A stretch of 64,000 nt of DNA from Rhodococcus sp. IEGM 1381. Its GTDB lineage: Bacteria; Actinomycetota; Actinomycetes; Mycobacteriales; Mycobacteriaceae. Below the pieces are notes generated by a model that ran no database searches, was not told the DNA's origin, and saw only the letters and a program-made list of their open reading frames with translations. The DNA lies in the NCBI RefSeq assembly GCF_030056795.1, contig NZ_JASHKQ010000004.1, positions 124,001 through 188,000 on the forward strand. The letters run 5' to 3'. Positions 21,201 through 51,872 of the stretch are shown here, piece by piece (the first letter of the stretch is position 1; the number at the start of each line of letters is the position of its first letter). A program made the translations under genes and the position numbers.

Positions 21201-21566
21201 ATGGGAGTGGACGTGGAATCCGAGGAAACACACTTTGTCGTCGAGGAAGTGAATGCCGGAACGCATGCAAACGGTTTCGGGCGCACCGACGACGGACGGG
21301 CGTTCGCGTTTCGAGTGCACCGCAGCACGCTCTACGTGGAGATCTATCGGGCCGACGTACGATCCCCGGTCCCGGATCGGTCCGAGGTAGAAGCGGTTGC
21401 CGAACACTCGGTCACCGAGATCGATCTGACCGACGAACGCAGCATCATCGGTGTGGTGCGTGACGCGGTCGCCCATGCACAGCAGTTGTCCGATGCGTCA
21501 CAGCGAGACACGACTGCTGTCCGAGCCTTCTTCAATCGGGTCAACTCCGTGCTGGAGGGTTTCTGA
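21201..21566 (+). CDS. hypothetical protein, small acidic
   Basis: A 121-residue acidic protein I do not recognise. It contains ETHFVVEEVNAGTHANGFGRTDDGRAFAFRVHRSTLYVEIYRAD, a beta-rich stretch, then a helical C-terminus. GAGGTG lies 10 bases before the ATG at 21201; a GTG at 21192 is an alternative. It diverges from the lipoprotein gene, with a 159-base gap that must hold both promoters. Its 3' end overlaps the end of the convergent hmuV by 26 bases. The protein-like composition and good ribosome binding site support a real gene. Confidence 0.65.
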   Translation: MGVDVESEETHFVVEEVNAGTHANGFGRTDDGRAFAFRVHRSTLYVEIYRADVRSPVPDRSEVEAVAEHSVTEIDLTDERSIIGVVRDAVAHAQQLSDASQRDTTAVRAFFNRVNSVLEGF

Positions 21567-22389
21567 CTCGGTGGGGAATCACCAGTTGTTCACCGGTATC
21601 GGGGTGGTCGAAGACGTCTACGGGGTGTCCGTACACGCGAGCGAGCCGATCCGAGGTCAGCACCGTTCGCGGCGGACCGACGGCAACGAGTGAGCCCGAG
21701 TCGAGTATCGCGACGCGATCGGCATACGCCGCCGCGAGACCCAGATCGTGCAGCACGACGACGACGGCGCGGCCCGCGGTTGCGAGGGAACGCACCACAG
21801 CCATGACGGACTCCTGATGTCCGAGGTCGAGCGCGGCGGTTGGCTCGTCGAGCAGAATCGTCGCGGTGTCCTGGGCCATGACGCGCGCCAGCGCGACCCG
21901 GGCCTGCTCGCCGCCGGAGAGCGACGCGAACGGTCGATGCGAGAACTCCGCTACGTCGCAAGCGGACATTGCTGCGGCGACGCGGTCGTCGTCGTCGCGT
22001 GCCGCCGATGTACCGACCCAGGGGGCTCGACCCATCCGGACGATCTGTCCGGCCGTGAACGCGAACCCGACGCGGTGGTGCTGGGGCAGCACAGCGCGTC
22101 GCCTGGCCATGCCGACCGTGCGGGTGCGGGTCAGCGGTTCGTCGCCCAGGAGAACCGATCCGGCGCTGGGCTCGGTGTCTCCCGCCAGGACCGACAGCAG
22201 TGTGGATTTGCCCGCGCCGTTGGGACCCACCAGTGCCAGTATCTCGCCGGCCACCACGTCGAGGTGGACGTCGGACAACACCGTCGCGACCCCGCGCCGT
22301 GCGGAGACTCCGCGGGCGACAAGGGTGTTCGAACCCGGTTCAGGGGTGTCCGGGATGTCGTGGCGCGCCGTGCCGAATCGCCGCATCAT
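21541..22389 (-). CDS. hmuV: heme/hemin ABC transporter ATP-binding protein
   Basis: A 282-residue ABC ATPase. Walker A is GPNGAGKS (about residues 50-57), the Q-loop LPQH, the signature LSGGEQARV, Walker B TILLDEPTAALD and the switch histidine LHD. The fold type is the FecE/BtuD class serving FecCD permeases. The spacing GRAPWVGTS after the Q-loop is typical of heme and siderophore importers. It overlaps hmuU by ATGA. Assignment to heme rather than siderophore or B12 rests on the binding protein and is moderately certain. Confidence 0.85.
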   Translation of the reverse strand: MMRRFGTARHDIPDTPEPGSNTLVARGVSARRGVATVLSDVHLDVVAGEILALVGPNGAGKSTLLSVLAGDTEPSAGSVLLGDEPLTRTRTVGMARRRAVLPQHHRVGFAFTAGQIVRMGRAPWVGTSAARDDDDRVAAAMSACDVAEFSHRPFASLSGGEQARVALARVMAQDTATILLDEPTAALDLGHQESVMAVVRSLATAGRAVVVVLHDLGLAAAYADRVAILDSGSLVAVGPPRTVLTSDRLARVYGHPVDVFDHPDTGEQLVIPHRVRNPPARS

Positions 22390-23453
22390 GCCCAACCGCC
22401 TTGCCGAGCGCGAGTGCGACGAAGCAGCCAGAAGAAGAACGGAGCCCCGGCCAGGGATGTCACCATGCCAAGGGGCAAGTCGACGTTCGCTACGAGGGTG
22501 CGCGTGACGAGGTCGGCAGCGAGCAACACGATGGCTCCCGCGAGTGCGCTGGCCGGGATGAGGACGCGATGCGAGGGGCCGAGCACCATCCGCATCACGT
22601 GCGGAACGACCAGGCCCACGAACAGGATTATTCCGGTGAACGCGACACCGGATGCGACGAGCAGGGCGACTATCACGATGGCGAATTGTCTGAGGCGTTC
22701 GACGTTCACTCCGAGATGGCGCGCCACGTTCTCCCCGAGCGCCAGCAGGTCGAGTCTGCGAGCGATCACCAGCGAAGCTCCGATCCCGAGCACCGCCAGT
22801 GGGCCGACCACAGCCACCGATTGCCACGTTGCGCCCGCCAAAGACCCCAGTTGCCAGAACACGATCTGATCCCTGGCAGCGGGACTGGCGACGAAGGTGA
22901 AGAAGGCGATCACGCCGCCTGCGAAGGCATTGACTGCGACGCCGGTGAGGATGAGGGTCACCACCTCGGTGCGGCCGGCGTTGCGGGCCAGGAAATACAC
23001 CGCGATCGTGGTGATCAGCCCGCCGACGAACGCGGCCAGCGCCACACTCCAGACCCCGGCGAAGCTGCCACCGAGAACGATCACCGAACTGGCACCGACC
23101 GCTGCTCCCGAGGACACCCCTACAACTCCGGGCTCGGCCAGCGGATTGGCGAACACACCCTGCAGCAGTGCGCCCGCACATCCCAGACACGCGCCGACGA
23201 ACACTGCAAGGGTCAATCGCGGAAATCGGACCTGCCACAACGTCACCTCGCCGCTGGCGTGAGCGGGCAGCGGACCGATGTCGAGTCCGGCCCGATGGGC
23301 GAGGCTTCCCAGCACTTCCAACGGCGATGTCGGCACTTGCCCGACGACAGCAGAGATCAGTGCCAGGGCGACCAGCGCCACGACCGACACGCCGAACGTC
23401 ACGACGACCCGGCGACTGGGCGTTCGCGCTCCGATAGGTGCGGCCTCGGTCAT
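22386..23453 (-). CDS. hmuU: FecCD-family permease of the heme-type ABC importer
   Basis: A 355-residue permease with about ten membrane segments. Characteristic blocks are WQVRFPRLTLAVFVGACLGCAGALLQ with NPLAEPGVVGVSSGAAVGA, LGENVARHLGVNVERLR (the ATPase-coupling loop) and FVGLVVPHVMR. The homodimer forms the translocation channel. It is coupled by ATGA overlaps to the binding protein upstream and the ATPase downstream, giving a strict hmuT-hmuU-hmuV order. Confidence 0.9.
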   Translation of the reverse strand: MTEAAPIGARTPSRRVVVTFGVSVVALVALALISAVVGQVPTSPLEVLGSLAHRAGLDIGPLPAHASGEVTLWQVRFPRLTLAVFVGACLGCAGALLQGVFANPLAEPGVVGVSSGAAVGASSVIVLGGSFAGVWSVALAAFVGGLITTIAVYFLARNAGRTEVVTLILTGVAVNAFAGGVIAFFTFVASPAARDQIVFWQLGSLAGATWQSVAVVGPLAVLGIGASLVIARRLDLLALGENVARHLGVNVERLRQFAIVIVALLVASGVAFTGIILFVGLVVPHVMRMVLGPSHRVLIPASALAGAIVLLAADLVTRTLVANVDLPLGMVTSLAGAPFFFWLLRRTRARQGGWA

Positions 23454-28044: not shown

Positions 28045-28853
28045 CCGTCGACCTGCCTCCGTTCGAGGGCCGCGAGACCATGGAGACCGGCGAGCTCACG
28101 ATCGTCGGGCGGGTGGTGTCGGCCAGCAACGCCACGCTGGTGTGCGAAGCGGGCGAGGGCGCTTCTTCTGTCCGGTGCGTGTACAAGCCCGTACGCGGGG
28201 AAGTGCCGCTCTGGGACTTCCCCGACGGCACTCTCGCCGGTCGCGAAGTTGCGTCCTACGAGATATCCGAGGCACTCGGCTGGGGTGTCATACCGCCGAC
28301 AGTTCTGCGCGACGGGCCGTTCGGGCCCGGAATGGTCCAGAAGTGGATCGACACACCCGAGGTCCACGCCGAAGGTCGGGTCGACCTCGTCGACATCTGT
28401 CGACCCGATCTGGTACCCGCAGGATGGATTCCGGTGCTGCAGGCCTACGACGGCGAGGGTGAAGAGATCGCGCTGATCCACGCCGACGATCCACGTCTGC
28501 AGCGGATGGCAGTCCTCGACGTGATCCTCAACAACGCCGACCGCAAAGGCGGACACGCGCTCGAAGGTCTCGATGGATACGTGTACGGGGTCGATCACGG
28601 CATCTGCCTGCACGCCGAGAACAAGTTGCGCACGGTGCTGTGGGGCTGGGCGGGCCAGGCGGTCGACGACGGGTTGATGACCGACGTCGTGCGGTTCGTC
28701 GAGACGTTCGACACCGTGATCGCTCCGCGGCTGGTGGACAAGATCACACTGGCCGAAACCATTGCAGTATTGGATCGAGCCCAGGAGCTGATCGCACGCC
28801 CAGTCATGCCGGAGCCTCGTTCGAGCAGACCCATACCCTGGCCCGCCTTCTGA
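28041..28853 (+). CDS. SCO1664 family protein, kinase-like fold
   Basis: A 270-residue protein. It carries a kinase-type set of residues seen in PI3/4-kinase and HipA folds: Lys49 in CVYKP, Glu74, a catalytic-loop-like NNADRKGGH (Asn155, Asp157) and a metal-binding-like DHG at 175-177. ATP-dependent phosphotransfer is therefore plausible but unproven. The TTG at 28041 overlaps the DUF3090 stop (TTGA) and has GAGGT 9 bases before it; the ATG at 28080 (257 residues) is the alternative. The gene sits directly before mshC, 24 bases apart. Confidence 0.85.
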   Translation: MTVDLPPFEGRETMETGELTIVGRVVSASNATLVCEAGEGASSVRCVYKPVRGEVPLWDFPDGTLAGREVASYEISEALGWGVIPPTVLRDGPFGPGMVQKWIDTPEVHAEGRVDLVDICRPDLVPAGWIPVLQAYDGEGEEIALIHADDPRLQRMAVLDVILNNADRKGGHALEGLDGYVYGVDHGICLHAENKLRTVLWGWAGQAVDDGLMTDVVRFVETFDTVIAPRLVDKITLAETIAVLDRAQELIARPVMPEPRSSRPIPWPAF

Positions 28854-28877
28854 TCGGGCTCGGATAGGCTCGGCTGC

Positions 28878-30119
28878 ATGCATTCTTGGTCCAGCCCGGA
28901 GATCCCGACAATCCCAGGACAGGGTCCAGCGCTTCGATTGTTCGACACAGCCGACCGCCAGGTCCGTCCCGTCACTCCGGGTTCGACCGCCCGCATGTAC
29001 GTCTGCGGCATCACCCCGTACGACGCTACCCATCTGGGACACGCAGCGACCTATCTGACGTTCGACCTGATCAACCGTTTGTGGCGGGATGCAGGTGTCG
29101 ACGTGCACTACGTGCAGAACGTCACCGATGTCGATGATCCGCTGTTCGAGCGCGCCGATCGGGACGGTGAGGACTGGCGCGATCTCGGTGCTCGTGAGAT
29201 CGAGCTCTTCCGTGCCGACATGGAGGCGTTGCGGGTGGTTCCTCCGCGCGATTACATCGGTGCCGTCGAGTCGGTCGACGAGGTCGTCGAACTGGTGGAG
29301 AAGTTGGTTGCGTCCGGTGCCGCCTATGTCGTGGACGACGCCGAGTACCCCGACGTGTACTTCCGCGCCGACGCCACCGAGCAATTCGGCTACGAGTCCG
29401 GTTACGACCGGCCCACTATGGACAGGTTCTTCGCCGAGCGCGGCGGCGATCCCGATCGCGCAGGCAAGCGAGATCCACTCGATGCGCTGCTGTGGCGCGC
29501 GGTGCGTCCCAGCGAACCGTCGTGGCCCTCGCCGTGGGGCCCCGGTCGACCCGGCTGGCACGTCGAATGCGCCGCGATTGCACTCAACCGGATCGGATCC
29601 GGGTTCGACATCCAAGGCGGCGGAAGCGATCTCATCTTCCCGCACCACGAATTCTCGGCGGCCCACGCCGAGGCCGCAACCGGTGATCCCCGCTTCGCCC
29701 GCCACTACGTGCACACCGGAATGATCGGGCTGGACGGTGAGAAGATGTCCAAGAGCCGCGGCAACCTCGTGTTCGTCTCCAAGCTCCGCGCCGAGAACGT
29801 CGATCCGGCCGCTGTGCGTCTCGGCCTGTTGGCGGGTCACTACAGGCAGGATCGGCCCTGGTCCGACGATGTCCTCGAACGGGCCCACACTCGGCTGGCG
29901 CTGTGGCGTCGGGCAGCGGCGCTCGAGGGGGCGGCGTCGGCCGACGACGTGATCAACCGGCTCCGGCAGCACCTGGCCGATGATCTGGACACGCCCAAGG
30001 CGCTCGATGCTCTCGACGCGTGGGCGAGTTTTGCAGTCGAGCGGGGTGGATCGGATGCAGGCGCACCCGGTGCCTTCGCCGATGCGGTCGACGCGCTGCT
30101 CGGAGTGCCGCTGCGTTAG
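28878..30119 (+). CDS. mshC: L-cysteine:1D-myo-inositol 2-amino-2-deoxy-alpha-D-glucopyranoside ligase
   Basis: A 413-residue paralogue of cysteinyl-tRNA synthetase that joins cysteine to GlcN-inositol, the third committed step of mycothiol synthesis. Class I features are HLGH at residues 52-55, zinc-site Cys43 (YVCG) and Cys241, FPHHE, and KMSKS at 289-293. The C-terminus lacks a tRNA anticodon-binding domain, which separates it from CysS. The -10 TAGGCT at 28865-28870 ends 7 bases before the ATG, and no ribosome binding site is seen, so it is probably leaderless. It is convergent with jetD, 12 bases apart. Confidence 0.97.
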
Positions 30120-30131
30120 TCGGACTATCAG

Positions 30132-31403
30132 TCAGGTCGCAGGCCCCAGGCGTAGATCGGCCAGCAGATCCGGGATCAGGCGTTCTTCCATGACTGCTCG
30201 GCCCGAATCATGAAGTGCGGCAGACAGTTCCGGGTCCCACGGACTGTCCGTCGGATGGCCCTTGAGCGGTTCGGAATTCCGCGCATCCAGTCCGCGCCGG
30301 TAGGAGTCGACATCCATTCGCCACGGTGACGCGTCGTATCGGTCCACCGCTCGTTTCACCATGTTCAGTCCGGCCCAGTCGAAGTCGGCACGCCACATGA
30401 TGGCGGTGTCGGGAGCGCGCGAACCCAGCAGCCGATGTACCGCGGCCGAGGGCTGGCCGTCGGTGCAGATCAAGCTTGCGCTGGTCGAGCCGAGAGTTCG
30501 GGCTGCGGCGGCGAGCACAGCGATGTTCTCGCAGACGAATACTCTCGACGTGCTGTTGGTGAGCGGGCCGCGCGCGAGCATGTCCACGGTGACAGGAAAG
30601 GGCACGCCCTCGTCCGCGGCGTCGTTGAGCCAACGAGCCACGGTGTGGTTCTCGGCGACGCGGTAGCCGAGAACCAGCACCCGACTCGACAGTGCGTCGA
30701 CCGACACCCCGGCCGTTTCCCACAGCGCCCTGATCCCCACCGGGTCGACGGGTCGAGGCACGTTCTCGCGCAACGACAGTGCGTCGAGGACGAGCTTCGC
30801 AGCTCCTCCGCCCGCGAGGGCCTTGGTATCACCGGTGGCTAGTTCCGACAGCTCGGTGAGCGACATCCCGTCCACCGGAAGCAGGGCCAGGACCTGCGTT
30901 GCCACCGCCAGTGCATCGACGGCGACGCGGCCGCCGAGCGTGCCGTCCTGATTGAGCAGCGAGGCGATCCAGTACTCGATCCACTCGCGATCGGTACCAC
31001 CGCCGAGTACCTCCCTGGCTCGATCCAGAGCGTCGGACCGCACCTGAGCCTTGTCCGCAGCGATCCGCTTCTTGTCCTGCAACGGGGCCTGCCGGGTGAG
31101 GGTGTCGATCAATCCGGCGCCACCGTTGAGCGGATGGCTCAGCCACGCGTCGAACCGCTCGAGGTCGAGCTTGGTGCTCCGCGCCCGAGAATGCAGACTG
31201 GAGTTGGACCGAGAGATAGCGCTGCACAGACGCCACAGCTCCGGGGCATCGCTCAGATCGACGGTGATGTTGCCACCGATCCGAAGCCAGTTGGACTCCA
31301 ACTTCTTTCGCGCAGCATCCAGCAGCGCCGACAATTCCGCGCTGCCCCGCCATTCGCCGTTACTGGACAAACTCCAGCCCGCCTTCGGTTCGGGTCGGCA
31401 CAC
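30132..31403 (-). CDS. jetD: Wadjet-type JetD, TIGR02679 family (DUF3323 + DUF2399, TOPRIM-like nuclease subunit)
   Basis: A 423-residue protein. The N-terminal about 200 residues form the DUF3323-type arm. The C-terminal DUF2399 region is TOPRIM-like, with the acidic residues Glu292 (FVCENIAVL), Asp340 and Asp342 (RADFDWAGL) as candidate metal ligands. In studied Wadjet systems JetD is the nuclease that cleaves DNA once the SMC complex has extruded a small circle. The GTG start lies 44 bases inside the end of jetC, so expression depends on jetC translation; a TTG at 31370 is a shorter alternative. It is the last gene of the operon and convergent with mshC. Confidence 0.88.
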   Translation of the reverse strand: MCRPEPKAGWSLSSNGEWRGSAELSALLDAARKKLESNWLRIGGNITVDLSDAPELWRLCSAISRSNSSLHSRARSTKLDLERFDAWLSHPLNGGAGLIDTLTRQAPLQDKKRIAADKAQVRSDALDRAREVLGGGTDREWIEYWIASLLNQDGTLGGRVAVDALAVATQVLALLPVDGMSLTELSELATGDTKALAGGGAAKLVLDALSLRENVPRPVDPVGIRALWETAGVSVDALSSRVLVLGYRVAENHTVARWLNDAADEGVPFPVTVDMLARGPLTNSTSRVFVCENIAVLAAAARTLGSTSASLICTDGQPSAAVHRLLGSRAPDTAIMWRADFDWAGLNMVKRAVDRYDASPWRMDVDSYRRGLDARNSEPLKGHPTDSPWDPELSAALHDSGRAVMEERLIPDLLADLRLGPAT

Positions 31404-34400
31404 GGCGCGTCAACGGTGATCCGAGTGCGGCAGCGAGGTCGGTGCCGTCGTGTTCGGCGAACAGTTCGCCGTTCTCCCAGACCAGAAGCGCTGCACTCAC
31501 GGTGTTCTCGGCCGTCGAATGCGCCAGGTCGTAGTGCGCGCAGCCGGGGACGTCCGCGTAGGTGATCCACAGGTCGTAGCCGGTCATGAACAGGTCGAGG
31601 TCGAATTGCACACTCAGGCCCAGCAATTCGCTGCGGCCGTTGTCGTCGACACCGGCGAAGGCCTCGTCGAGAGCAAGTAGACGAGGGGAGTGCGGATCTG
31701 CGGACGAGAGCATCACGTGCGCCGCCGCGAACAGTGGCAAGTGCAGCGACACCGATTGCTCACCGCCGGAGAGCGCACTGTGCCGGGCGACGGTCAGGCG
31801 ATCCTCGTTGCCGTCCCCGCTGATGAGCGTGAAGGCGAACACCCGCCAGCGGCGATAGTCCAGTGTTGCAGAAAGGATCTCGGGGTACGACCGTTCCGGA
31901 TGTGCCGCACGGGCAATCCTGATCTCCGACGCGAAGTGGGCGCGCATCGCGGCCAGGTCGTCCTGGTTCAGCGCCGAGGCGTCGCGGTCCAGCAGCTTGG
32001 ACACCGCCCGCGCCCCGTCGTCGAGGTTGTCCGCGAGCACCCAGTGCACGCCGATCGTGTTGCCAGAGGACATCCGGCGTTGCTTCATCTCGGCGGACAT
32101 CTGTGCGATCAGCTCGCGTGCGTCGACAGTCCGCTCGTGAATCTGCTGCGCCAGACCGGTCAGCAGGGCATCCTCGAGAATCCGGCGCTCCTGCTCGGTC
32201 AGCAGCAGTTCCTGGTCGGCCCTGGCCGAACCGATTCGGTCGGCGAAATCTCCGACCGACGAATAGCCCTGCTCGTCCTGTACACGTACCACCGTCAAAC
32301 CGTCCGGCGCATCCCATTGCAACCGGTAGTCCTGACCCGATGCCGCCAGTTGCGAATCGAACTCCTGCAGCGCACTCGTCAGGGCAGTCCGGGTCGACTT
32401 CCGGCTGGAGTCACTCACTCTCACCGACGCCGTCGCTGCATCGAGTGCCGAATGCAACGCGCGCACCACCGGTGGGAGTACCGGAACCTCGTCGTCCGGG
32501 CCGTCCGCCTGCTGAACTCGATACAGGATCTGTTCGATCGTCAGCCACGCCGAGTCACTGGCAGGCCAGGCGTACGTCTCGTGGACGCCTAGGATGGCAA
32601 GAAGATCCTTGCGGGCGTACGGCGCAAGCCGTACGGCATCGCTCAGGGTTTCGGTGACGGCGGCGCGCAGGCTTTCGAGTGCCGTGTTGCAAGCACCCTC
32701 GGCCTTGCCGATCGCTTCGCCGGCTTCCTTGTCAGCTTTACGCGCGGCCCGCTGTTCGGCGCGGCATTTCTCGATGCGTTCGCGGGCGTTCTCGAGATCG
32801 GTGTCGATCTGTTCGGCGGTGGCACCGAGCTTCTCGCTCAACAGCTCCAGGCGTTGCACCTGCTGCCGGTAGTTCTCGTCGGCTATCGCGGCTTCCTCGG
32901 CGAGCTCCTCGGCCAGACCGGTCGCTTCCTCGAGGCGGTTGGTGGCTTCGCGGGCCCGCTCGCTCTCGCGGGTGTGGTCGCTGCGCTTGCGGATGACCAC
33001 CGCGCCCTGGTGCTCGAAATGGCGAATCGCTGCGGCAAGGGCATCGACATCGCGGCCGATGTGTGGGGTGCGATGGGCGACGGCGACGGTGCGCAGTTGC
33101 TTCTCCTTCGCGGACAGGTCCGCGATCGCCTGATCGAATTCGCGGTCGGCGGCTACCGCACCATCCTTCGAGGTGCGCAGCGCTCCAGCGGCGGCCGTGA
33201 CGGCGCGTTGTGCCTTGACGATGGACGAGACACGGGGGAGTTGTTTGGCGGCCGCGCTCAGAGCCTGCACCAGCTCGCGTGCCGCCAGCTCGTCGGCCGT
33301 CGCGGTCTCGAGAACTGCAATTGCAGTATCGATCGCGCCGCCGAGTTCGGCGATGCGCTGCTCCCGCCGGCGAGCCCGCGCCGTCGCGCCGATGTACTCG
33401 GCGTCCGGTTTCGCGTGGCGACCCTGCTGAACACCCTGCCAGTATCGGCCGTCGACACCTACCGAGACAGCGCTGCCCGAGCGATCGTTCGGCTCCTGTT
33501 GCAAAGCAACGGACTCGAGCAGATCCAGGACACGGGACGCCGGTACGGCGGTTCCGGGTTCGGGTTCCAGAACGGACGCCAACGTTGCCCCTGAAGGCCT
33601 CGCGGCCTCCGGTAGCGGCGACAGATACTGCTCCGAGTCGGCGTCGGCGGGAAAGTCCGCGGTCGGGTGGATCCAACCGTCGAGCACATTGGCGGCCTGC
33701 AATGCGGATTCGATCCCCGCCGCGTCGGCAGGGGACACCGCGTCGGCAAACCGAACCAGCTGCCACAGCGGTGCGCCCGGGAGATCTGCACGGCTGTCGG
33801 TCCGCGCAGCGAACGGCGGTGGTGCGTCGTCGTGTTCGGCTCGTACCAGGGACAGTTCGTCGCGCAGCGTGTTCAGTTCGGCCGAGCGCGTGGCCACGTC
33901 GACGCGTGCCTGTGCCTGCCGGGCACGAATCGCGTCGATACCGTCTGCGGTCTGCTCGGAGAGCACTGATTCCAGGCTCGGGGCGTCGTCCTCGCCGATG
34001 CTGCCCAAGGCTGCATCCAGGGCCTCGAACACGGCGGAGGTTATGCCCGCGGAGGAGTACAGCGACGAATTGTTCGACCACCAGGCCCGCAGTCCCGAAG
34101 CGAACTGCGCCTTCTCCAGATCCACGGTCGCCTCGGCCTCGGTGACCGCTGCCGCCGCGGCCTCGAGCAAATCGCGCGCCTTCGTTGCGGCCTTCTCCGC
34201 GCGAGCACGTTCCGTCGACGCCTTCTCGACGGTTGCCAGCGCCTCACGAACCGCGCGCACGTCACCGTCCCGCTCCTCGGCGTGCCCGCGAAGAGCGGTA
34301 CCGATCTGATCACTGCGAGCCGTACCCGGCAGCGGTGTCCATACGATGCCCGCATCCTCGGCCGCAGTCTGCAGCTCTTCCTCCGCGCGAGTCACCCCGG

Positions 34401-35544
34401 CAACGGAATCCCGGAGTGCGGAGTCCGCGCGAGCGGTCTCGGCGGTGCGCTGTTCCAATTCTGCTTGCGCTTTGCGTGCCCGGTCGGCCTGCTGCGCCGT
34501 CGACACTTCGAGCTTTGCAGCAGATTCGGCCAGGTCGTCCAGTTGCTGCTTGCCCTCGTACGCGCTCGAGCGCTGCAGGGTTTCGCGGTCTGCGACGGCC
34601 TGATCCAGCGCACGCTCGGCCTCGTCGAATCGCGTTTCGGCTGCCGCCCGCTCCACCAGTCGACGGTCCTTCAGCGCCGACGCCGCGAAGTGCGCAGTGG
34701 TCGCGTGGGTCACGGTCTCGAGCCGGCGCGAGACCTGCTCGACATCCGAACGGGTTTGCACTCGAAGGTATTTGGAGTAGACCGAAACGAAGTTCCTGGC
34801 CGCCTGATCGGCTTGGGCCAGACCCTCCAATGCACGTCCCACTTCCTCCATGTCACTGAAGGAGCGTGCCGCCTCCAGCACCAGTTGCTCGTCGAGGGGA
34901 CGCAGACCGTCGGTCAGTGCCTGGGACAGTCCCTTCGGATCGAGATTCTTGGCCAACTGCGGTCGGCGAAGTGTCAGAATCAGATTGATCAACTGGTCGT
35001 AACGTTGTGCGCCGAGCCCGAACATCCGGGCATCGATCGCGGCGCGGTAGTCGACCGGACGATCGGTGATGGCATCGCTGCCGAGTTGTTCGGCCAGCTG
35101 CTTCTTCGTCAACGGCCGGTCGTCGGAGCCCAACAACGAGAAGTCGACGCCCACTCGGCCGTCGGCCACGAAGTACCAGCGGGTCACCTTGTCGTTCTGA
35201 CGACTCGCCCGCATACCGATACCGACCGTCACCGATTCGGGGTCCTCGCGCGAGCCGCGGCCGAACTCCATCCACACGTACGAGTGAGCGCTTTCCTGCC
35301 CCCGGTAGAGCAGGTTGGACTTCATGGTTCGCTCTTCACCGGCGAACGGGTTGAGTCGGCGCGGTTCGATGCGACCGTCGAGGACAAAGGGGAACAGAAC
35401 TTCGAGCGCTTTGGTCTTGCCGGATCCGTTGGGCCCACGCAGCACCAGGCGACCGTCTGCGAAGGAGAACTCCTGATCGCGGTAGTCCCACAGGTTGACG
35501 ATCCCTGCTCGCGTCGGCCGAAAGCGTGTCGAGTGTGCGGTCAT
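31360..35544 (-). CDS. jetC: Wadjet-type JetC, TIGR02680 SMC-like ATPase
   Basis: A 1394-residue ABC/SMC-type ATPase. The N-terminal Walker A is GPNGSGKT (residues 37-44). A long central region, about 230-1100, is rich in Ala/Glu/Arg heptads and predicted coiled coil. The C-terminal half site has LSGGEQ (1258-1263) and Walker B LLALDEAF (Asp1293, Glu1294). It is the motor of a four-gene cassette and in type I Wadjet extrudes plasmid DNA loops. The ATG begins 5 bases after the jetB stop. The length and intact motifs argue for a functional gene with no frameshift. Confidence 0.93.
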   Translation of the reverse strand: MTAHSTRFRPTRAGIVNLWDYRDQEFSFADGRLVLRGPNGSGKTKALEVLFPFVLDGRIEPRRLNPFAGEERTMKSNLLYRGQESAHSYVWMEFGRGSREDPESVTVGIGMRASRQNDKVTRWYFVADGRVGVDFSLLGSDDRPLTKKQLAEQLGSDAITDRPVDYRAAIDARMFGLGAQRYDQLINLILTLRRPQLAKNLDPKGLSQALTDGLRPLDEQLVLEAARSFSDMEEVGRALEGLAQADQAARNFVSVYSKYLRVQTRSDVEQVSRRLETVTHATTAHFAASALKDRRLVERAAAETRFDEAERALDQAVADRETLQRSSAYEGKQQLDDLAESAAKLEVSTAQQADRARKAQAELEQRTAETARADSALRDSVAGVTRAEEELQTAAEDAGIVWTPLPGTARSDQIGTALRGHAEERDGDVRAVREALATVEKASTERARAEKAATKARDLLEAAAAAVTEAEATVDLEKAQFASGLRAWWSNNSSLYSSAGITSAVFEALDAALGSIGEDDAPSLESVLSEQTADGIDAIRARQAQARVDVATRSAELNTLRDELSLVRAEHDDAPPPFAARTDSRADLPGAPLWQLVRFADAVSPADAAGIESALQAANVLDGWIHPTADFPADADSEQYLSPLPEAARPSGATLASVLEPEPGTAVPASRVLDLLESVALQQEPNDRSGSAVSVGVDGRYWQGVQQGRHAKPDAEYIGATARARRREQRIAELGGAIDTAIAVLETATADELAARELVQALSAAAKQLPRVSSIVKAQRAVTAAAGALRTSKDGAVAADREFDQAIADLSAKEKQLRTVAVAHRTPHIGRDVDALAAAIRHFEHQGAVVIRKRSDHTRESERAREATNRLEEATGLAEELAEEAAIADENYRQQVQRLELLSEKLGATAEQIDTDLENARERIEKCRAEQRAARKADKEAGEAIGKAEGACNTALESLRAAVTETLSDAVRLAPYARKDLLAILGVHETYAWPASDSAWLTIEQILYRVQQADGPDDEVPVLPPVVRALHSALDAATASVRVSDSSRKSTRTALTSALQEFDSQLAASGQDYRLQWDAPDGLTVVRVQDEQGYSSVGDFADRIGSARADQELLLTEQERRILEDALLTGLAQQIHERTVDARELIAQMSAEMKQRRMSSGNTIGVHWVLADNLDDGARAVSKLLDRDASALNQDDLAAMRAHFASEIRIARAAHPERSYPEILSATLDYRRWRVFAFTLISGDGNEDRLTVARHSALSGGEQSVSLHLPLFAAAHVMLSSADPHSPRLLALDEAFAGVDDNGRSELLGLSVQFDLDLFMTGYDLWITYADVPGCAHYDLAHSTAENTVSAALLVWENGELFAEHDGTDLAAALGSPLTRRVPTRTEGGLEFVQ

Positions 35545-35548
35545 CTAC

Positions 35549-36967
35549 TTAGGCCTCTACTTCGGATGGATCGGTGCTGGGGACTTGTTCGGTACCGAAC
35601 AGTGAGTCCTGCGGGGTCCGATCACGCACGCTGACCATCACGTCTCGGTAGCGCGCGATCACCGGCAACACCAGCGCGCCGCCGGACACGCAGTGCACCA
35701 GGCGCAGTCGATGCAGTAGTGCCAGTGCACGCAGCCGCAGGCCATCCCGGTCGCTCTGCCACTGAGCAGCGAAGGTGCGGCCGAAACGTTCGACGAGATC
35801 ATCGACGACCGACGTCAACCAACTGTCCTCGATCAACGGGTACAACTGCTTCTCGCCCGCATTGTCGAATGTTGTTGCATCGGAACCGAACCCGAACTCG
35901 GCGAGATCACCGAAGATCCCGCCGTCGGGAATTGCGCTGTCCAACTGCTCGATCAGGGCGTCACCGTCGGGAAGGGGGTAGGTCGCAAGGGCCGATGCAT
36001 CCGGATCGATCACTCTGTCCGAAATTTCACCGGCGATCAACAACGCGACCTGGGCGATGGTCCCCGTGCTGGGGAAGCGGTGGTCCGACAGCCGACCCGA
36101 GGTGTCGATCAGCGCCACCCCCTCGGAACGGCGCTCGACAACCAGGCCGGTGAGCAACTCGACGTCCGCGACTGTGCGAGACGTGGCCAGCGCCGCGCGA
36201 CCGTCGCGATCGAGATCGTCCGAGTAGACGACCGGCTGTTCGACGAGTGCTCGTCGTACTGCGCGCAACGTCTCTTTGGGGTCTGCTTCGCGCACGGAGT
36301 CGGTGTGGGTCCCGAGCTCGGAGTCCTCGGGATCCAACGGGGCATCCGCACCGGCCAGTAATCCACGGATCGACCGCAGATGCTGGACGGCGCGAGGCGG
36401 CCGGAACAGAGCGACGACGACGGGCCGGTCGATGTCGTAGAGGGCTTCGCCCGCGGACGGATTGTTCGCCCAACCGGTGGCGTCGCCGTCGGCCAATGCG
36501 ATCGCACCGCGGGTCGCAAGCCAGCCGATCGCGTCGACGAAGGCGTCTCGGTCACTTGCCCGGTCGGTCGTCAGCTCTACTCCGTCTACTTGACTTGCCT
36601 CTGCCGCAACATGATCGGCAAGCTCGGAGAGGGTGATCTGGTTGCCCGCCCGGCCGAGGGCAGCCAGTGCCAGTGCCAGATACGCGTATCTACGTCGGTC
36701 GAAAATTCGGTCGGTGGCTGTTCGGGCGGGTTGGCTGTCGTCGAGTCGATCGATCACCGGGTACAGACGCGCCGTGGTCTCCGTGACCTCGAGGCGATAT
36801 CCGAACAGTTCGAGCAGGTCCTCGCGCAACTCGGTGGCCCATCTGCGCAGCAGAGGCAGCGCGATCCTATCGGGATACGTGGTGGTCACCAGGTGATTCG
36901 ACAGCGCGACCCGGGCGGCCCGCTGGTAGGAATCCAGTGCGAGGGTGGAGATTTCGCGAGCTCTCAT
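35549..36967 (-). CDS. jetB: Wadjet-type JetB, TIGR02678 family (DUF2398, kite-like subunit)
   Basis: A 472-residue protein matching the second member of the cassette in position and size. It has winged-helix-like segments near the N-terminus (ALPLLRRWATELREDLLELFGY, then RRYAYLALALAALGR) and near the C-terminus (SWLTSVVDDLVERFGRTF), and acidic stretches between. In Wadjet and MukBEF-like complexes this subunit bridges the SMC heads and the kleisin. The ATG overlaps the jetA stop in ATGA, so jetA and jetB are coupled. The assignment rests on context plus recognised family features and was not searched. Confidence 0.85.
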   Translation of the reverse strand: MRAREISTLALDSYQRAARVALSNHLVTTTYPDRIALPLLRRWATELREDLLELFGYRLEVTETTARLYPVIDRLDDSQPARTATDRIFDRRRYAYLALALAALGRAGNQITLSELADHVAAEASQVDGVELTTDRASDRDAFVDAIGWLATRGAIALADGDATGWANNPSAGEALYDIDRPVVVALFRPPRAVQHLRSIRGLLAGADAPLDPEDSELGTHTDSVREADPKETLRAVRRALVEQPVVYSDDLDRDGRAALATSRTVADVELLTGLVVERRSEGVALIDTSGRLSDHRFPSTGTIAQVALLIAGEISDRVIDPDASALATYPLPDGDALIEQLDSAIPDGGIFGDLAEFGFGSDATTFDNAGEKQLYPLIEDSWLTSVVDDLVERFGRTFAAQWQSDRDGLRLRALALLHRLRLVHCVSGGALVLPVIARYRDVMVSVRDRTPQDSLFGTEQVPSTDPSEVEA

Positions 36968-38487
36968 CGGCGAGCGACCTCACTGACATGAAGAGACAAG
37001 CGGTCCAGATGCAGTCTGCCGCGGCTGGTCCGCACGATCGTCGAACGGTCGCTGTCGCTCAGCGTCAAGCGCACGCCGCTGTCCGATCCGGACGAGTCGG
37101 AGGTCCGTCCGCTCACACGTACCCGCGCGGTGAGTGCAGCGTTCAGCAGGCTCAACAGAACCTCGGTTTCCTGCTCGTTCAGAATTCGGTCGTGGATTCC
37201 GGCCGACGCAAGCGACTGCGCTGCGGCACTGCGTGATCGCTGCGCGTCCAGTTGCTGCTCCCGAAGCCGTCTGATACCGCCGTCGTTGCGCTGCACCCGT
37301 CCCGGAACGCCGGGGGTCGGGGTGCGTCCGGTCTCGGCCAGGGTGCGGGAGATCTCGACCGGTGGAGCCTCCCACCACGATCGGGACGTGGAGATGATGT
37401 CGGCATCGGGATGCACCATCGACAGGTGTCTAGGCCTGCCGAGACCGAACACTGCGTGGAACAGGGCGTGTGCGCTGTCCTCGGTAGGCGTGGCAGCGAA
37501 CCAGCCGGCGAGATGTCGCAGTTGGCTTTCCCTGCTCACGCCGCCCCTGCGGGTCTCCGTGACGCGGCGTAGGAGCGACAGCACGGCGGCAATCGCGCTC
37601 ATCGTGCCTTCGCGGAGTCGCTCGGACTCGCTGAGTTCGGACTCCGCCGCGACGAACCAGTGCGACAGGCCGGCCCAGCGGTCGGTCCAGTCGGCTCGCC
37701 GTTCGTCGACGGAGAGAAATACTCGTTCGTCGCTGATCGCGGCCCGCTCGACGAGCTCCTCGATGCCGGTGCTCTCGACGACCGCGATCGCCTTCGCCAG
37801 CTTCGGGGCGTAGCGGGTGAGATCCGAGCTGAACTCGCGCATGTGCCTCAGCAGCGCGTCCTTGTGGACTAGAAACGACTCGGGAGTGATCTCGGTGGTG
37901 CGCACCAGATCGCCCAGCACCAGGTAGAAATGTGCGGCGCGGGTCGCCATCTCCGACAGTGTCGAATCGAGTCGACTGAGTTTGCGATAGATGCGATCGC
38001 CGTCGGCCTGACGGTTCGCCTCGGCCAGCTCGTGCATGTCGGCCAACAGCTCGGGCAACACCAACCGCGACAGTGACGCGTCGTCCAGACGGGCACCGAG
38101 CACGTCCTCGACCGCGCGGTAGGCCTTGTAGCCGGCCTGGCCGAACTGGTAGACGAAGTGACGGTTGCGGTACTCGGCGAGAGTCGCTGCGCGGGTGCCG
38201 TCGTAGCTGCGTTCGAGCAGGCCCCAGGCGTGGAGCTGATCGAGGAGGGGCGCGATGTCGAGCGTGGTCGGTGCGGCGTGCCGACCGGGGCTGCGGGTGA
38301 TGAGGTCGGCCACGTCTCCGGAGTGCAGCAGAACGACGTAGTTGGCTCGTGCGGTGTCGAATGCCCGGAGAACAGCCAGGTACTCGGATCGCTTCTCGGC
38401 AACGGCGAACGAGAACAGACCGAGACGGTCCTCCTCCACGAACGCGTTGACGGCACCCAGCCGTGCGTCCTCACCTGAATCGCTCAC
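36964..38487 (-). CDS. jetA: Wadjet-type JetA, TIGR02677 family (DUF2397, kleisin-like subunit)
   Basis: A 507-residue protein. It opens with LGLFSFAVAEKRSEYLAVLRAFDTARANYV, typical of TIGR02677/DUF2397, followed by helical repeats through about residue 260, a linker, and a C-terminal winged-helix-like part (EQETEVLLSLLNAALTARV). It is the expected kleisin-like subunit of the cassette. The start is GTG without a Shine-Dalgarno, 6 bases after a -10, so the operon mRNA is probably leaderless. It is the first gene of jetABCD, 46 bases from the stop of nirD. Confidence 0.87.
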   Translation of the reverse strand: MSDSGEDARLGAVNAFVEEDRLGLFSFAVAEKRSEYLAVLRAFDTARANYVVLLHSGDVADLITRSPGRHAAPTTLDIAPLLDQLHAWGLLERSYDGTRAATLAEYRNRHFVYQFGQAGYKAYRAVEDVLGARLDDASLSRLVLPELLADMHELAEANRQADGDRIYRKLSRLDSTLSEMATRAAHFYLVLGDLVRTTEITPESFLVHKDALLRHMREFSSDLTRYAPKLAKAIAVVESTGIEELVERAAISDERVFLSVDERRADWTDRWAGLSHWFVAAESELSESERLREGTMSAIAAVLSLLRRVTETRRGGVSRESQLRHLAGWFAATPTEDSAHALFHAVFGLGRPRHLSMVHPDADIISTSRSWWEAPPVEISRTLAETGRTPTPGVPGRVQRNDGGIRRLREQQLDAQRSRSAAAQSLASAGIHDRILNEQETEVLLSLLNAALTARVRVSGRTSDSSGSDSGVRLTLSDSDRSTIVRTSRGRLHLDRLSLHVSEVARR

Positions 38488-38493
38488 TGGAAC

Positions 38494-38524
38494 AGGGTAG
38501 GGGGTCGGAGTGCCAGTCGTTCAA
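38494..38524 (-). promoter_or_regulatory. predicted leaderless promoter of jetABCD
   Basis: On the minus strand TTGAAC (38519-38524) and TACCCT (38494-38499) are 19 bases apart. The -10 ends 6 bases before the GTG of jetA. The whole promoter fits the 46-base gap between nirD and jetA, so the defence cassette can be transcribed independently of nitrite reductase. Confidence 0.45.
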
Positions 38525-38533
38525 CCGTGCCGG

Positions 38534-38833
38534 TTACAGCTCCACGGTCACTTTCCCGTCCACCACTGCGGCGGGGTAGGTGCGCACGGAGTCGATACCA
38601 CTGGGGCAGGAGCCGTCGTCGAGAGAGAACGTGTATTGATGGAGTGGGCAGACGACTACAGACCCGTCGATCTGACCGTCCGCCAATGGCCCGCCCTTGT
38701 GCGGGCAGATGGCGTCCATGGCCCGCACCGAACCGTCACCGAGAAGGAATACAGCCACCTGCTTGCCGTCCACCACGTAGGCCCTGCCCTCACCGGGCGT
38801 CAGGTCCTCCACCGCTCCCACCGGCACGCTCAT
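38534..38833 (-). CDS. nirD: nitrite reductase small subunit, Rieske [2Fe-2S] type
   Basis: A 99-residue protein with an intact Rieske site: CPHKGG near residue 45 and CPLHQYTF near residue 63. It partners NirB in NAD(P)H-dependent assimilatory reduction of nitrite to ammonium in the cytoplasm. The ATG overlaps the nirB stop (ATGA). A longer frame exists but would overlap nirB extensively. It ends 46 bases before the jetA start region. Confidence 0.93.
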   Translation of the reverse strand: MSVPVGAVEDLTPGEGRAYVVDGKQVAVFLLGDGSVRAMDAICPHKGGPLADGQIDGSVVVCPLHQYTFSLDDGSCPSGIDSVRTYPAAVVDGKVTVEL

Positions 38834-41319
38834 CGGACCGGAACCTGCGGCAGCGGAAGCAGTGGCAGCGACGGGGTGAACTGGGCGGGTGATTTCGGTG
38901 CCGTGCGGTCCTGCCACGGGTCGACGTAGCCGTCCACCGACGCCTGCATTCGTTCGTCGAGACCGGCCACGATGCCGTCACGGTCGTCGATCAGCACGCT
39001 CTGCAGTTCTTCCAGGCCGAGGCGCGGAACCCACGCGTACGTTCGCTCGAGCCACTGGGCATTCTCGCGGTAGTGCTGAATGAACCTGGCTGCCAGGGTC
39101 AGAACCTCCTCGGACCCCGTCACGGTGGCCAGTAGATCGCCCTTGCGGATGTGTGCGCCGGCCGCACCTCCGACGTAGATCTCCCACTTGTCCTCGCCCA
39201 CCGAGACGACGCCGAAGTCCTTGCACAGTGCCTCCGAACAGTTGCGAGGGCAGCCGGCAACCGCGAGCTTCAACTTCGCCGGAGTCTCCAAGCCTTGGAA
39301 CCGCTCTTCGAGGGCGATTCCGAGAGCAGTCGAGTCGCCGAGGCCGAAGCGGCAGAAGTCGCTGCCCACACAGGTTTTCACCGTGCGCATGCTCTTGCCG
39401 TACGCGAAGCCCGAGGGCATGTCCAGATCGCCCCACACCTTCGGCAGGTCTTCCTTCTTGATGCCGAGCAGGTCGATGCGTTGTCCACCGGTTACCTTGA
39501 CCAGCGGAACGTGATACTTGTCGGCGACGTCGGCGATCTTGCGCAACTGATCCGGGGTGGTGACGCCACCCTTCATCTGCGGCACCACCGAGAACGTGCC
39601 GTCCCGCTGGATATTGGCGTGCACACGATCGTTGATGAACAACGCGCCGCGCTCGTCCACCCAATCCGGACCCCACACGGTTCGCAGCAGTGACGCCAAC
39701 GGCATCTTGGCGGCGGCGTCCTCCAGGCCGTCGGTCGCGAGTGCTGTGAACACCTGCGACACTGCCCGAAGATCCTGAGTTCGGACGGCATCGAGCAGTT
39801 CCGGCTTCGTCATCGGGATACACGGCACATACCAGTCTGCGGTGGGGTCTGTTTCGACGGCACCGCCCGCTGCGCACGCAATGATGTCCTTCACCAACCC
39901 TTTGCACGACCCGCAACCCTTGCCTGCGCGGGTCTTCGCGGTCACGTCGCTGAGGTTCTTGGCCCCGGCGTGCACGCAGGACACGATGGCACCCTTGGTG
40001 ACGCCGTTGCAGTTGCACACCTGGACGTCGTCGGCCAATTCGGCGGCTCCTGTTGCCGCAGAGGGTGTTCCCATATCGAAGAGCATGCTGATGCGCTCGT
40101 CGGGCAGTGGCACTTTCTCGTCGAACGCCTGGGTCAGGAAGTTCGCCTTCGAGATGTCGCCGAGCAGCGTGGCCCCGACGAGCTTGTTGTTACGTACGAT
40201 CACTGATTTGTACGTGCCACTCCGGGGCTCGTAGAACTGGACGAATTCGTCGTCGTCGCGTTCGGGGGCGGTGATCCCCATCGAGGCGACGTCGACACCG
40301 GCCACTTTGAGTTTTGTCGTCAGCCGCGAACCGTGGTATGCCGCACTGGGATTCGCGCCGGTGAGCACATCGGCCAACACGACGGCCTGCTCCCACAGCG
40401 GCGCAACGAGGCCGTACACCTCGCCGCGATGCTGGCAGCATTCACCGACGGCATAGATGGATCCTTCGTCCTCGCAACGCAATTGGTCGTCGACCACGAT
40501 TCCTCGTTCGATCACCAAGCCGCCCGCGCGGGCGAAGTCCACACTGGGGCGAATTCCGGCGGTAACGACGACCATGTCCGCAGCCAGCGAAGTACCGTCG
40601 TTGAACCCCACGCCGGTGACGACACCGTCCTCGGAACGCAACACCGAGGTGGTTCTCCTCGAGGTGTGCACGCCGACCCCGAGCGACTCGATCTTGTTGC
40701 GCAGCACTCGTCCACCGCGTTCGTCGAGCTGTTGGTTCATCAAGTGTCCGGGGGAGTGCACCACGTTCACGTCGAGCCCTTGCGTCCGCAGCCCGTACGC
40801 GGCTTCGAGGCCCAGAAGACCGCCGCCGATGACGACAGCGCAGACATCGTCGTGTGACTGTGCCATCTGCAGCATGCCGTTCGTGTCGGCGATGGTGCGG
40901 AAGCCGAACACGCCACGTGCCAGTCTGCCGTCGGATTCGCGGAGACCGTCCATGTTCGGGAAGAACGTGTTGCTTCCCGTCGCGATGATCAGCACGTCGT
41001 AGTCGACGGACCGTCCGCTCTCGCACACAACGGTCTTGGAGAAACGGTCCAGCGACACGGCCCGATCGCCCACATGCAGTGTCACGCCGTTGTCGCTGTA
41101 CCAGCTCATGGGATTGAGAATGAGATCCTCGTCGTCGACGGTGGTCTCACCGGACAGCACGTGCGAGAGCATGATTCGGTTGTAGTTTCCGTACGGCTCG
41201 TCGCCGATCATCGTGATCTCGAACAGCGAGCTGCCATCACGTTTGATTATCTCCTCGACCGTTCGGGCACCGGCCATTCCGTTGCCGATCACCAACAGCC
41301 GCTGCTTGCCCGCAGTCAT
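38830..41319 (-). CDS. nirB: NAD(P)H-dependent nitrite reductase large subunit
   Basis: An 829-residue multidomain enzyme. Residues 1-380 are an FAD/NAD(P)H oxidoreductase (LLVIGNGMAGARTVEEI; ATGSNTFFP; VVIGGGLLGLEAAYGL). Residues about 425-480 hold a BFD-like [2Fe-2S] domain (CNCNGVTKG...GCGSC). The sulfite/nitrite reductase ferredoxin and siroheme-[4Fe-4S] domain follows, with TCVGSDFCRFGLGD and AGCPRNCSEALC supplying the cluster cysteines. It transfers six electrons to nitrite to give ammonium. It starts in a TGATG overlap with the small upstream gene and is coupled to nirD. Confidence 0.97.
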   Translation of the reverse strand: MTAGKQRLLVIGNGMAGARTVEEIIKRDGSSLFEITMIGDEPYGNYNRIMLSHVLSGETTVDDEDLILNPMSWYSDNGVTLHVGDRAVSLDRFSKTVVCESGRSVDYDVLIIATGSNTFFPNMDGLRESDGRLARGVFGFRTIADTNGMLQMAQSHDDVCAVVIGGGLLGLEAAYGLRTQGLDVNVVHSPGHLMNQQLDERGGRVLRNKIESLGVGVHTSRRTTSVLRSEDGVVTGVGFNDGTSLAADMVVVTAGIRPSVDFARAGGLVIERGIVVDDQLRCEDEGSIYAVGECCQHRGEVYGLVAPLWEQAVVLADVLTGANPSAAYHGSRLTTKLKVAGVDVASMGITAPERDDDEFVQFYEPRSGTYKSVIVRNNKLVGATLLGDISKANFLTQAFDEKVPLPDERISMLFDMGTPSAATGAAELADDVQVCNCNGVTKGAIVSCVHAGAKNLSDVTAKTRAGKGCGSCKGLVKDIIACAAGGAVETDPTADWYVPCIPMTKPELLDAVRTQDLRAVSQVFTALATDGLEDAAAKMPLASLLRTVWGPDWVDERGALFINDRVHANIQRDGTFSVVPQMKGGVTTPDQLRKIADVADKYHVPLVKVTGGQRIDLLGIKKEDLPKVWGDLDMPSGFAYGKSMRTVKTCVGSDFCRFGLGDSTALGIALEERFQGLETPAKLKLAVAGCPRNCSEALCKDFGVVSVGEDKWEIYVGGAAGAHIRKGDLLATVTGSEEVLTLAARFIQHYRENAQWLERTYAWVPRLGLEELQSVLIDDRDGIVAGLDERMQASVDGYVDPWQDRTAPKSPAQFTPSLPLLPLPQVPVR

Positions 41320-49122: not shown

Positions 49123-51163
<2,041 letters not shown>

Positions 51164-51694: not shown

Positions 51695-51872
51695 TGGTGA
51701 AGCCCCTGTTTCCGTAGTCCGTCCACTGTTTTGTCAGGTGAGGCTAACATGACCCCGGCCGGGGTTGGGGTGCAGTCGAGGCGTGCTGCAGCCACGCCCG
51801 ATCGTGGTGTCGGTCCGCACATTCGGGCCGGTGCCGGTAGCGTTGATAGATCGTCACTGGGAGGAGTCGCTC

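Follow-up and report, generated by a model that had tools for sequence, protein, structure and literature searches.

Wadjet systems of type I, among them MksBEFG of Corynebacterium glutamicum, JetABCD of Pseudomonas aeruginosa and Escherichia coli, and EptABCD of Mycobacterium smegmatis, combine a structural maintenance of chromosomes (SMC) motor with a TOPRIM nuclease. The same combination is encoded by the jetABCD operon described here from a 64,000-nucleotide stretch of Rhodococcus sp. IEGM 1381 (assembly GCF_030056795.1, contig NZ_JASHKQ010000004.1, positions 124,001 to 188,000; this whole stretch is called the window), but the type I proteins belong to different families: the window JetC gives a weak match to JetC1, and PF09983 is not among the Pfam matches of the window JetD. 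The type II complex of Neobacillus vireti (nvJET; Protein Data Bank, PDB, entries 9qe0 and 9qe1) is matched by the window JetC at an E-value of 6e-72 (the better of two stretches, residues 10 to 817) and by JetA at 1e-14 (residues 81 to 418); judging from the papers cited in excerpts of PMC12647877, 9qe0 appears to be the N. vireti complex. According to the same excerpts (all papers are cited here from excerpts), nvJET, a Wadjet-II, cuts naked circles in vitro and cannot bypass obstacles. A first-pass annotation of the window had assigned the operon to type III and called that branch far less studied, which is outdated for the type II branch now that the structure has been solved and in vitro cleavage reported.

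MksBEF of P. aeruginosa resembles JetABC and is without a nuclease, whereas the window has jetD. In the excerpted passages of a 2023 review (PMC10586767), MksBEF is said to organize chromosomes and to have likely arisen through the loss of JetD, the suppression of plasmid transformation in Bacillus subtilis needs all four Jet subunits, no settled view is offered of where Wadjet comes from or how it relates to other SMC complexes, and chromosomal loop extrusion is described as undocumented for any JetABCD system. Of actinobacterial genomes, 42% are reported to encode Wadjet, and among 97 Rhodococcus genomes 73% combine Wadjet and restriction-modification with either Eleos or PD-T4-3 (excerpts of PMC10482375). 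The "Wadjet_II" of R. erythropolis NI86/21, of the same type as the window operon, is listed with three proteins in the part of PMC12915292 consulted, as expected for jetABC without jetD.

Our results indicate, with a probability that we put at about 75%, that the window carries a working type II Wadjet at an old site beside mshC, that jetABC is the constant and jetD the optional part of this locus, and that the motor has a probable second, noncutting role. By its content the operon is an ordinary intact type II Wadjet; what is unusual is the old core locus, at which the motor is fixed and the nuclease optional. Type II itself has already been studied, and it is the setting that is new, with the motor kept at the mshC site while jetD comes and goes. 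A literature search, which did not cover bioRxiv preprints and most subscription journals, turned up, among the papers listed, none on Rhodococcus or Nocardia type II loci that lack jetD. In contrast to MksBEF of P. aeruginosa, the jetD-less relatives are of type II and still occupy the jetABCD site, some of them beside close jetD-bearing sisters. The observations concern gene content, protein family, motifs, fold, locus, distribution, and selection.

Four intact open reading frames (ORFs) on the minus strand occupy positions 30132-38487, flanked by mshC and nirBD, and the single DUF2397 gene and the single DUF2399 gene of the genome both lie in this operon. The complete operon of the first-pass annotation was recovered exactly in its ORF positions, gene order, and couplings (an ATGA overlap of jetA and jetB, a gap of 4 bases between jetB and jetC, and an overlap of 44 bases between jetC and jetD), and the ATPase motifs of JetC and the three acidic residues of JetD that it named are present. 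The order matches the TIGR02677-02678-02680-02679 cassette of the NCBIfam profiles. Of the span 30132 to 38524 that had been given, the lower end is right, but 38524 is no gene boundary, since the jetA ORF begins at the GTG at 38487. The features are as follows.

36964..38487, minus strand: jetA (type II), 507 amino acids, GTG start; DUF2397, kleisin-like subunit (PADLOC JetA2, E 3.6e-183; PF09660, 4.5e-140; TIGR02677 above cut-off)
35549..36967, minus strand: jetB (type II), 472 amino acids; DUF2398, KITE-like subunit, ATGA overlap with jetA (PADLOC JetB2, 6e-213; PF09661; TIGR02678, 126.5 bits, cut-off 124.65)
31360..35544, minus strand: jetC (type II), SMC-like ATPase of 1394 amino acids, 4-base gap from jetB (PADLOC JetC2, E 0; TIGR02680, 710.9 bits, cut-off 462.85; phmmer to JetC of 9qe0_A, 6.1e-72)
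35413..35436, minus strand: JetC Walker A, GPNGSGKT, residues 37-44 (the same in 12 of 12 aligned JetC proteins, with and without jetD)
31756..31773, minus strand: LSGGEQ signature motif of JetC, residues 1258-1263 (unchanged in all 12 aligned JetC proteins)
31663..31680, minus strand: Walker B region of JetC, residues 1289-1294 (all 12 aligned JetC proteins have D1293 and E1294; PF13558 SbcC_Walker_B, 8e-20)
30132..31403, minus strand: jetD (type II), 423 amino acids from a GTG, start unsure; DUF3323 and DUF2399, TOPRIM nuclease, 44-base overlap with jetC (PADLOC JetD2, 4.6e-110; PF11796, PF09664; fold match to JetD/MksG and topoisomerase VI-A)
30528..30530, minus strand: JetD E292, TOPRIM acid (glutamate in all 56 JetD rows of the alignment, 2 of them duplicates)
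30378..30386, minus strand: JetD D340-F-D342, TOPRIM acids (D340 kept in all 56 rows and D342 in 55)
28878..30119, plus strand: mshC, convergent anchor gene, 12 bases from the jetD stop (TIGR03447, 728.7 bits)
38534..38833, minus strand: nirD, same-strand upstream neighbor, 46 bases before jetA (from the sequence; the name is that of the first-pass annotation and fits the position after nirB)
38830..41319, minus strand: nirB, nitrite reductase large subunit (TIGR02374, 805.6 bits)

The profile searches (PF09660, PF09661, PF13558, and PF11796 with PF09664) placed the four proteins in the families that had been proposed, and three of the four lie above their NCBIfam cut-offs. The best PADLOC matches are JetA2, JetB2, JetC2, and JetD2, and E-values from 0 to 5e-110 argue that the match of the operon is not due to chance. 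The type III label of the first-pass annotation was dropped, since JetA, JetB, and JetD match type II models exclusively in a library that presumably includes type III Jet models as well; JetC matches type II first and then, weakly, JetC1, LmuB, and mad3. The window thus holds JetA, JetB, a JetC with ATPase motifs, and a JetD with TOPRIM acids, in jetABCD order and with a topoisomerase VI-A-like JetD fold, as type II Wadjet requires. In Foldseek searches the predicted JetD model matched topoisomerase VI-A and solved JetD/MksG structures, including 8b7f and 7til; a sequence search with JetD against the PDB returned nothing but designed proteins (E 0.05 and 0.13), and one with JetB against PDB chains found no relative. 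The GTG start of jetD is uncertain, as the predicted local distance difference test score of the model is below 50 at residues 1-11 and 13-15, and a TTG at codon 12 is an alternative candidate; under the chosen starts, 19 of 36 distinct JetDs have 408-416 amino acids and 8 have 423. A nuclease-free, MksBEF-like complex was ruled out as the identity of the window system because jetD is in the operon. Judged by its genes and motifs, the operon is a complete and probably working Wadjet type II system.

Throughout, genus refers to the Rhodococcoides group of Rhodococcus (R. fascians, R. kyotonense, and R. corynebacterioides), represented by 37 genomes. Both jetA and mshC were found in all 37, always on a shared contig with their 3' ends facing and 5.6 to 7.2 kb apart, which bears out the old, stabilized chromosomal place suggested earlier. 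A jetA match was found in 131 of the 301 genomes sampled from the family; mshC was looked for in 80 of the 99 genomes outside the genus with jetA at E <1e-49 and was found in 79, and jetA faces mshC within 25 kb in 46 of these 80. The arrangement is seen in Rhodococcus in the narrow sense (g23; 18/20, with jetA in 26 of 28 genomes of a census of this group), Prescottella (g9; 13/14), the R. oryzae group (g21; 6/6), Antrihabitans (g15; 3/4), and the R. ruber group (g27; 6/14), and is absent from g22 (0/13) and the remaining groups (0/9). The mshC-nirBD interval is fixed on its mshC side in all 37 genus loci and looser on its nirBD side: a tblastn search placed nirD no more than 200 bases from jetA in 25 loci and at a greater distance in 7, and did not detect it within the retrieved stretch in the other 5. 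The MshC and JetABC trees, judged by eye, have their main groups in common, suggesting that jetABC has been inherited along with mshC. The first-pass claim of no repeats held in a search of 28800-39200, which gave no inverted repeats and five weak, chance-like families of direct repeats. A recent island was ruled out by the synteny in all 37 genomes, by the operon GC content of 0.63 to 0.69, which is within or at the top of the window range, and by the lack of inverted repeats. Next to mshC, the operon thus has an old chromosomal site that several genera share.

Many mshC-site loci were found by tblastn to carry jetABC without jetD. DUF2399 scored above its cut-off anywhere in the genome in 29 of 37 genus genomes (absent from 8) and in 14 of the 80 jetA-positive genomes outside the genus. 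Eight of these 14 belong to g22, which is Nocardia from the tree position of L099 and L100; seven of the eight g22 JetDs were placed in the JetD tree, all outside the clade of the JetDs from the window's group, and a second jetA is present in five of these eight genomes. As a control, 21 of 26 jetA-positive genomes outside the family (from a phylum sample of 336 genomes) had DUF2399, and the five misses were four assemblies of at least 170 contigs and 83 to 92% completeness (G480, G496, G623, and G632) and one 10-contig assembly with a partial jetA (G548). Set against the counts in the family, this makes the split between jetABC and jetD look like a feature of the family. It can be seen between close relatives, as R. 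kyotonense JCM 23211 has jetD and R. kyotonense KB10 does not, at a shared motor site. jetD is under purifying selection in the clade of the window and is absent from many other lineages.

For comparison of individual loci, JetD matches below 100 bits were dropped, 155 loci were collapsed to 121 distinct JetC sequences, and 5 with scant downstream sequence were set as jetD-unknown. Only 7 to 116 bases (at most 64 in 11 cases) separate the jetC stop from mshC in 12 of the jetD-less loci, and others have 0.5 to 6.2 kb of extra sequence between jetC and mshC. Inspection by eye of three jetD-less loci (L080, L139, and L124) showed a strong palindrome where jetC and mshC converge across a short gap, which fits a two-way terminator, and in L080 (genome G255) the jetB frame extends to 527 codons, beyond the usual jetB end. 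The JetD_C domain PF09983, which we take to span both type I and type III JetD, was searched for in 73 of the 74 jetD-less genomes (G077 was left out); it was present in 10, and 63 had neither JetD domain. A replacement of jetD by a type I/III JetD was therefore rejected.

No damage to jetABC was detected in the loci without jetD. With outgroup rows and jetD-unknown loci excluded, tblastn revealed neither frameshifts nor internal stops in the three genes in any of the 78 distinct jetD-less loci, and partial matches were limited to four (L156, located at the edge of a contig; L099 and L100, whose diverged JetC is one open frame; and L149). Ratios of nonsynonymous to synonymous substitution rates (dN/dS; Nei-Gojobori method, 24 hand-picked pairs) were low for JetA, JetB, and JetC in 12 jetD-less pairs (0.013-0.211, 0.046-0.193, and 0.032-0.153), in 5 jetD-bearing pairs (0.031-0.091, 0.071-0.129, and 0.059-0.146, with JetD at 0.088-0.156), and in 3 mixed pairs of jetD-less and jetD-bearing sisters (0.053-0.064, 0.110-0.186, and 0.068-0.157). 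Among the JetABC columns conserved in the jetD-bearing and 17 outgroup rows, 7 dropped below 70% and 278 remained at 90% or more in 50 jetD-less rows. A relaxed JetD interface in jetD-less JetABC was thus sought and not found (7 columns lost, against 2 in the reverse test). jetABC is kept without jetD, and its putative JetD contact surface appears to be without clear decay. The lack of detected damage in 78 of 78 loci, the low dN/dS, and the 63 of 73 genomes without a type I/III JetD suggest a job of JetABC that is independent of JetD, and the motor therefore probably has a second role, one that does not depend on cutting and is most likely condensin-like or otherwise noncutting.

The direction of change was read from trees. 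On the main JetABC tree (FastTree, 121 loci, long branches flagged), the jetD label needs 8 changes by Fitch parsimony and 17 losses under strict Dollo parsimony, and on an MshC tree of 70 loci it needs 4 changes at the mshC site. The JetDs of the window's group form one clade (Shimodaira-Hasegawa-like approximate likelihood ratio test support 98), and G506, of the same order, is next outside; its JetA also falls with the JetA of this group (support 100), in an unresolved basal fork. These placements favor jetD at the base and repeated loss. The surest losses are those of L080, the sister of R. tibetensis, and of R. kyotonense KB10 (L115), which branches within a set of jetD-bearing sisters. 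Loss would thus be the main direction of jetD change, as far as the trees indicate.

By analogy with type I complexes and with the type II complex of N. vireti, from which extrusion and cutting are carried over, two JetABC motor units would load onto DNA and reel it in using ATP. On a small circle the motor would exhaust the available DNA and stall, and the stalled motor would activate the JetD TOPRIM nuclease to make a double-strand cut, with linear and very large circular DNA being spared. JetD would in this way convert the JetABC motor to plasmid restriction.

Several points weigh against the picture of a working Wadjet with a motor that has kept a second role where jetD was lost. The approximately unbiased (AU) test rejected the joining of the Antrihabitans stalactiti JetD with the Rhodococcoides JetDs demanded by the JetABC tree (p 0.005), and with it strict vertical descent of jetD for this species; a second constraint was borderline and not rejected (p 0.057). 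jetD has therefore probably moved sideways at least once, and some absences need not be losses. The median dN/dS is somewhat higher in jetD-less than in jetD-bearing pairs (JetA 0.08 versus 0.05, JetB 0.14 versus 0.08, and JetC 0.10 versus 0.07), so some relaxation is possible, although the pairs differ in lineage and distance; for JetA and JetB the top values belong to Nocardia pairs that are very close, and where it was measurable the MshC ratio is slightly raised too. Among 33 distinct jetD-bearing loci, jetA is broken in two, by a frameshift in G011 (L067, L111) and by an early stop near codon 34 in G032 (L041, L113), with jetB, jetC, and jetD kept and a sequencing error possible, and the full system is hence not indispensable. 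The JetD score for TIGR02679 is 172.9, under the cut-off of 196, and the Foldseek TM-scores of the JetD model to JetD/MksG are low (0.32-0.37). The lack of a relaxed JetD contact surface could also mean an unseen nuclease partner.

This last point leads to an explanation in which the locus is an anti-plasmid Wadjet II throughout, with JetABC always a defense sensor and the jetD-less relatives using an unrecognized nuclease in trans. It fits the retention of nearly every conserved JetABC column without jetD, and the type I/III JetD domain does occur elsewhere in 10 of 73 jetD-less genomes, with another nuclease family being conceivable. We find it unlikely, as the other 63 have neither JetD domain and the 12 loci in which jetC ends 7 to 116 bases from mshC leave no space for a partner gene. 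We also know of no type I JetD that serves a type II system. An ancestral, condensin-like jetABC to which the clade of the window added jetD, making a new Wadjet, is about equally improbable: the 4 changes on the MshC tree are compatible with gains and the AU test suggests at least one move of JetD, but jetD accompanies jetA in 21 of 26 genomes outside the family, G506 is the nearest outside relative of the group JetD and falls with the group JetA, jetD comes directly after jetC wherever the group has it, and the jetD-less L115 and L080 are nested among jetD-bearing sisters. That the window operon is itself decaying or inactive is very improbable; the two broken jetA genes would agree with it, but none of the four window ORFs is truncated, their motifs are intact, and JetD has a dN/dS of 0.139 against R. 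fascians NBRC 12155 (L136). Within the favored reading of a constant motor and an optional nuclease, we more tentatively propose, at somewhat less than even odds, that JetABC at the mshC site (in Nocardia at other sites) is a core complex in Rhodococcus and related genera, with a nuclease-independent chromosomal role and JetD a removable weapon, and that a passage between Wadjet and a condensin-like complex has been caught in sister species, in the type II branch and independently of MksBEF.

The promoter that had been placed in the 46-base gap between jetA and nirD (38488-38533) found no support: a consensus scan of 38400-38900 gave no sigma-70-like match, although an actinobacterial promoter would not necessarily match the consensus. 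jetA may be transcribed from nirBD. Elsewhere in the window, an AAA+ ATPase-like ORF at 51765-53636 (plus strand) has partial matches to the PADLOC IetA and TRIP13 models (best E 1e-27), and an ORF at 49916-51163 (plus strand) has a partial mad2 match (E 9e-23). A 565-amino-acid ORF at 21541-23238 (minus strand) has a heme ABC transporter ATPase domain at residues 304-556, and its first 300 residues are uncovered among the 25 matches listed, so that a fusion or a wrong start is possible.

In conclusion, close relatives share the motor and its site but differ in whether the nuclease is present, which allows a direct comparison with the motor alone. Systems of Rhodococcus and Nocardia that are called "Wadjet II" from three genes may not cut plasmids, and, if this is true, actinobacterial Wadjet counts that accept jetABC alone would overstate plasmid defense.

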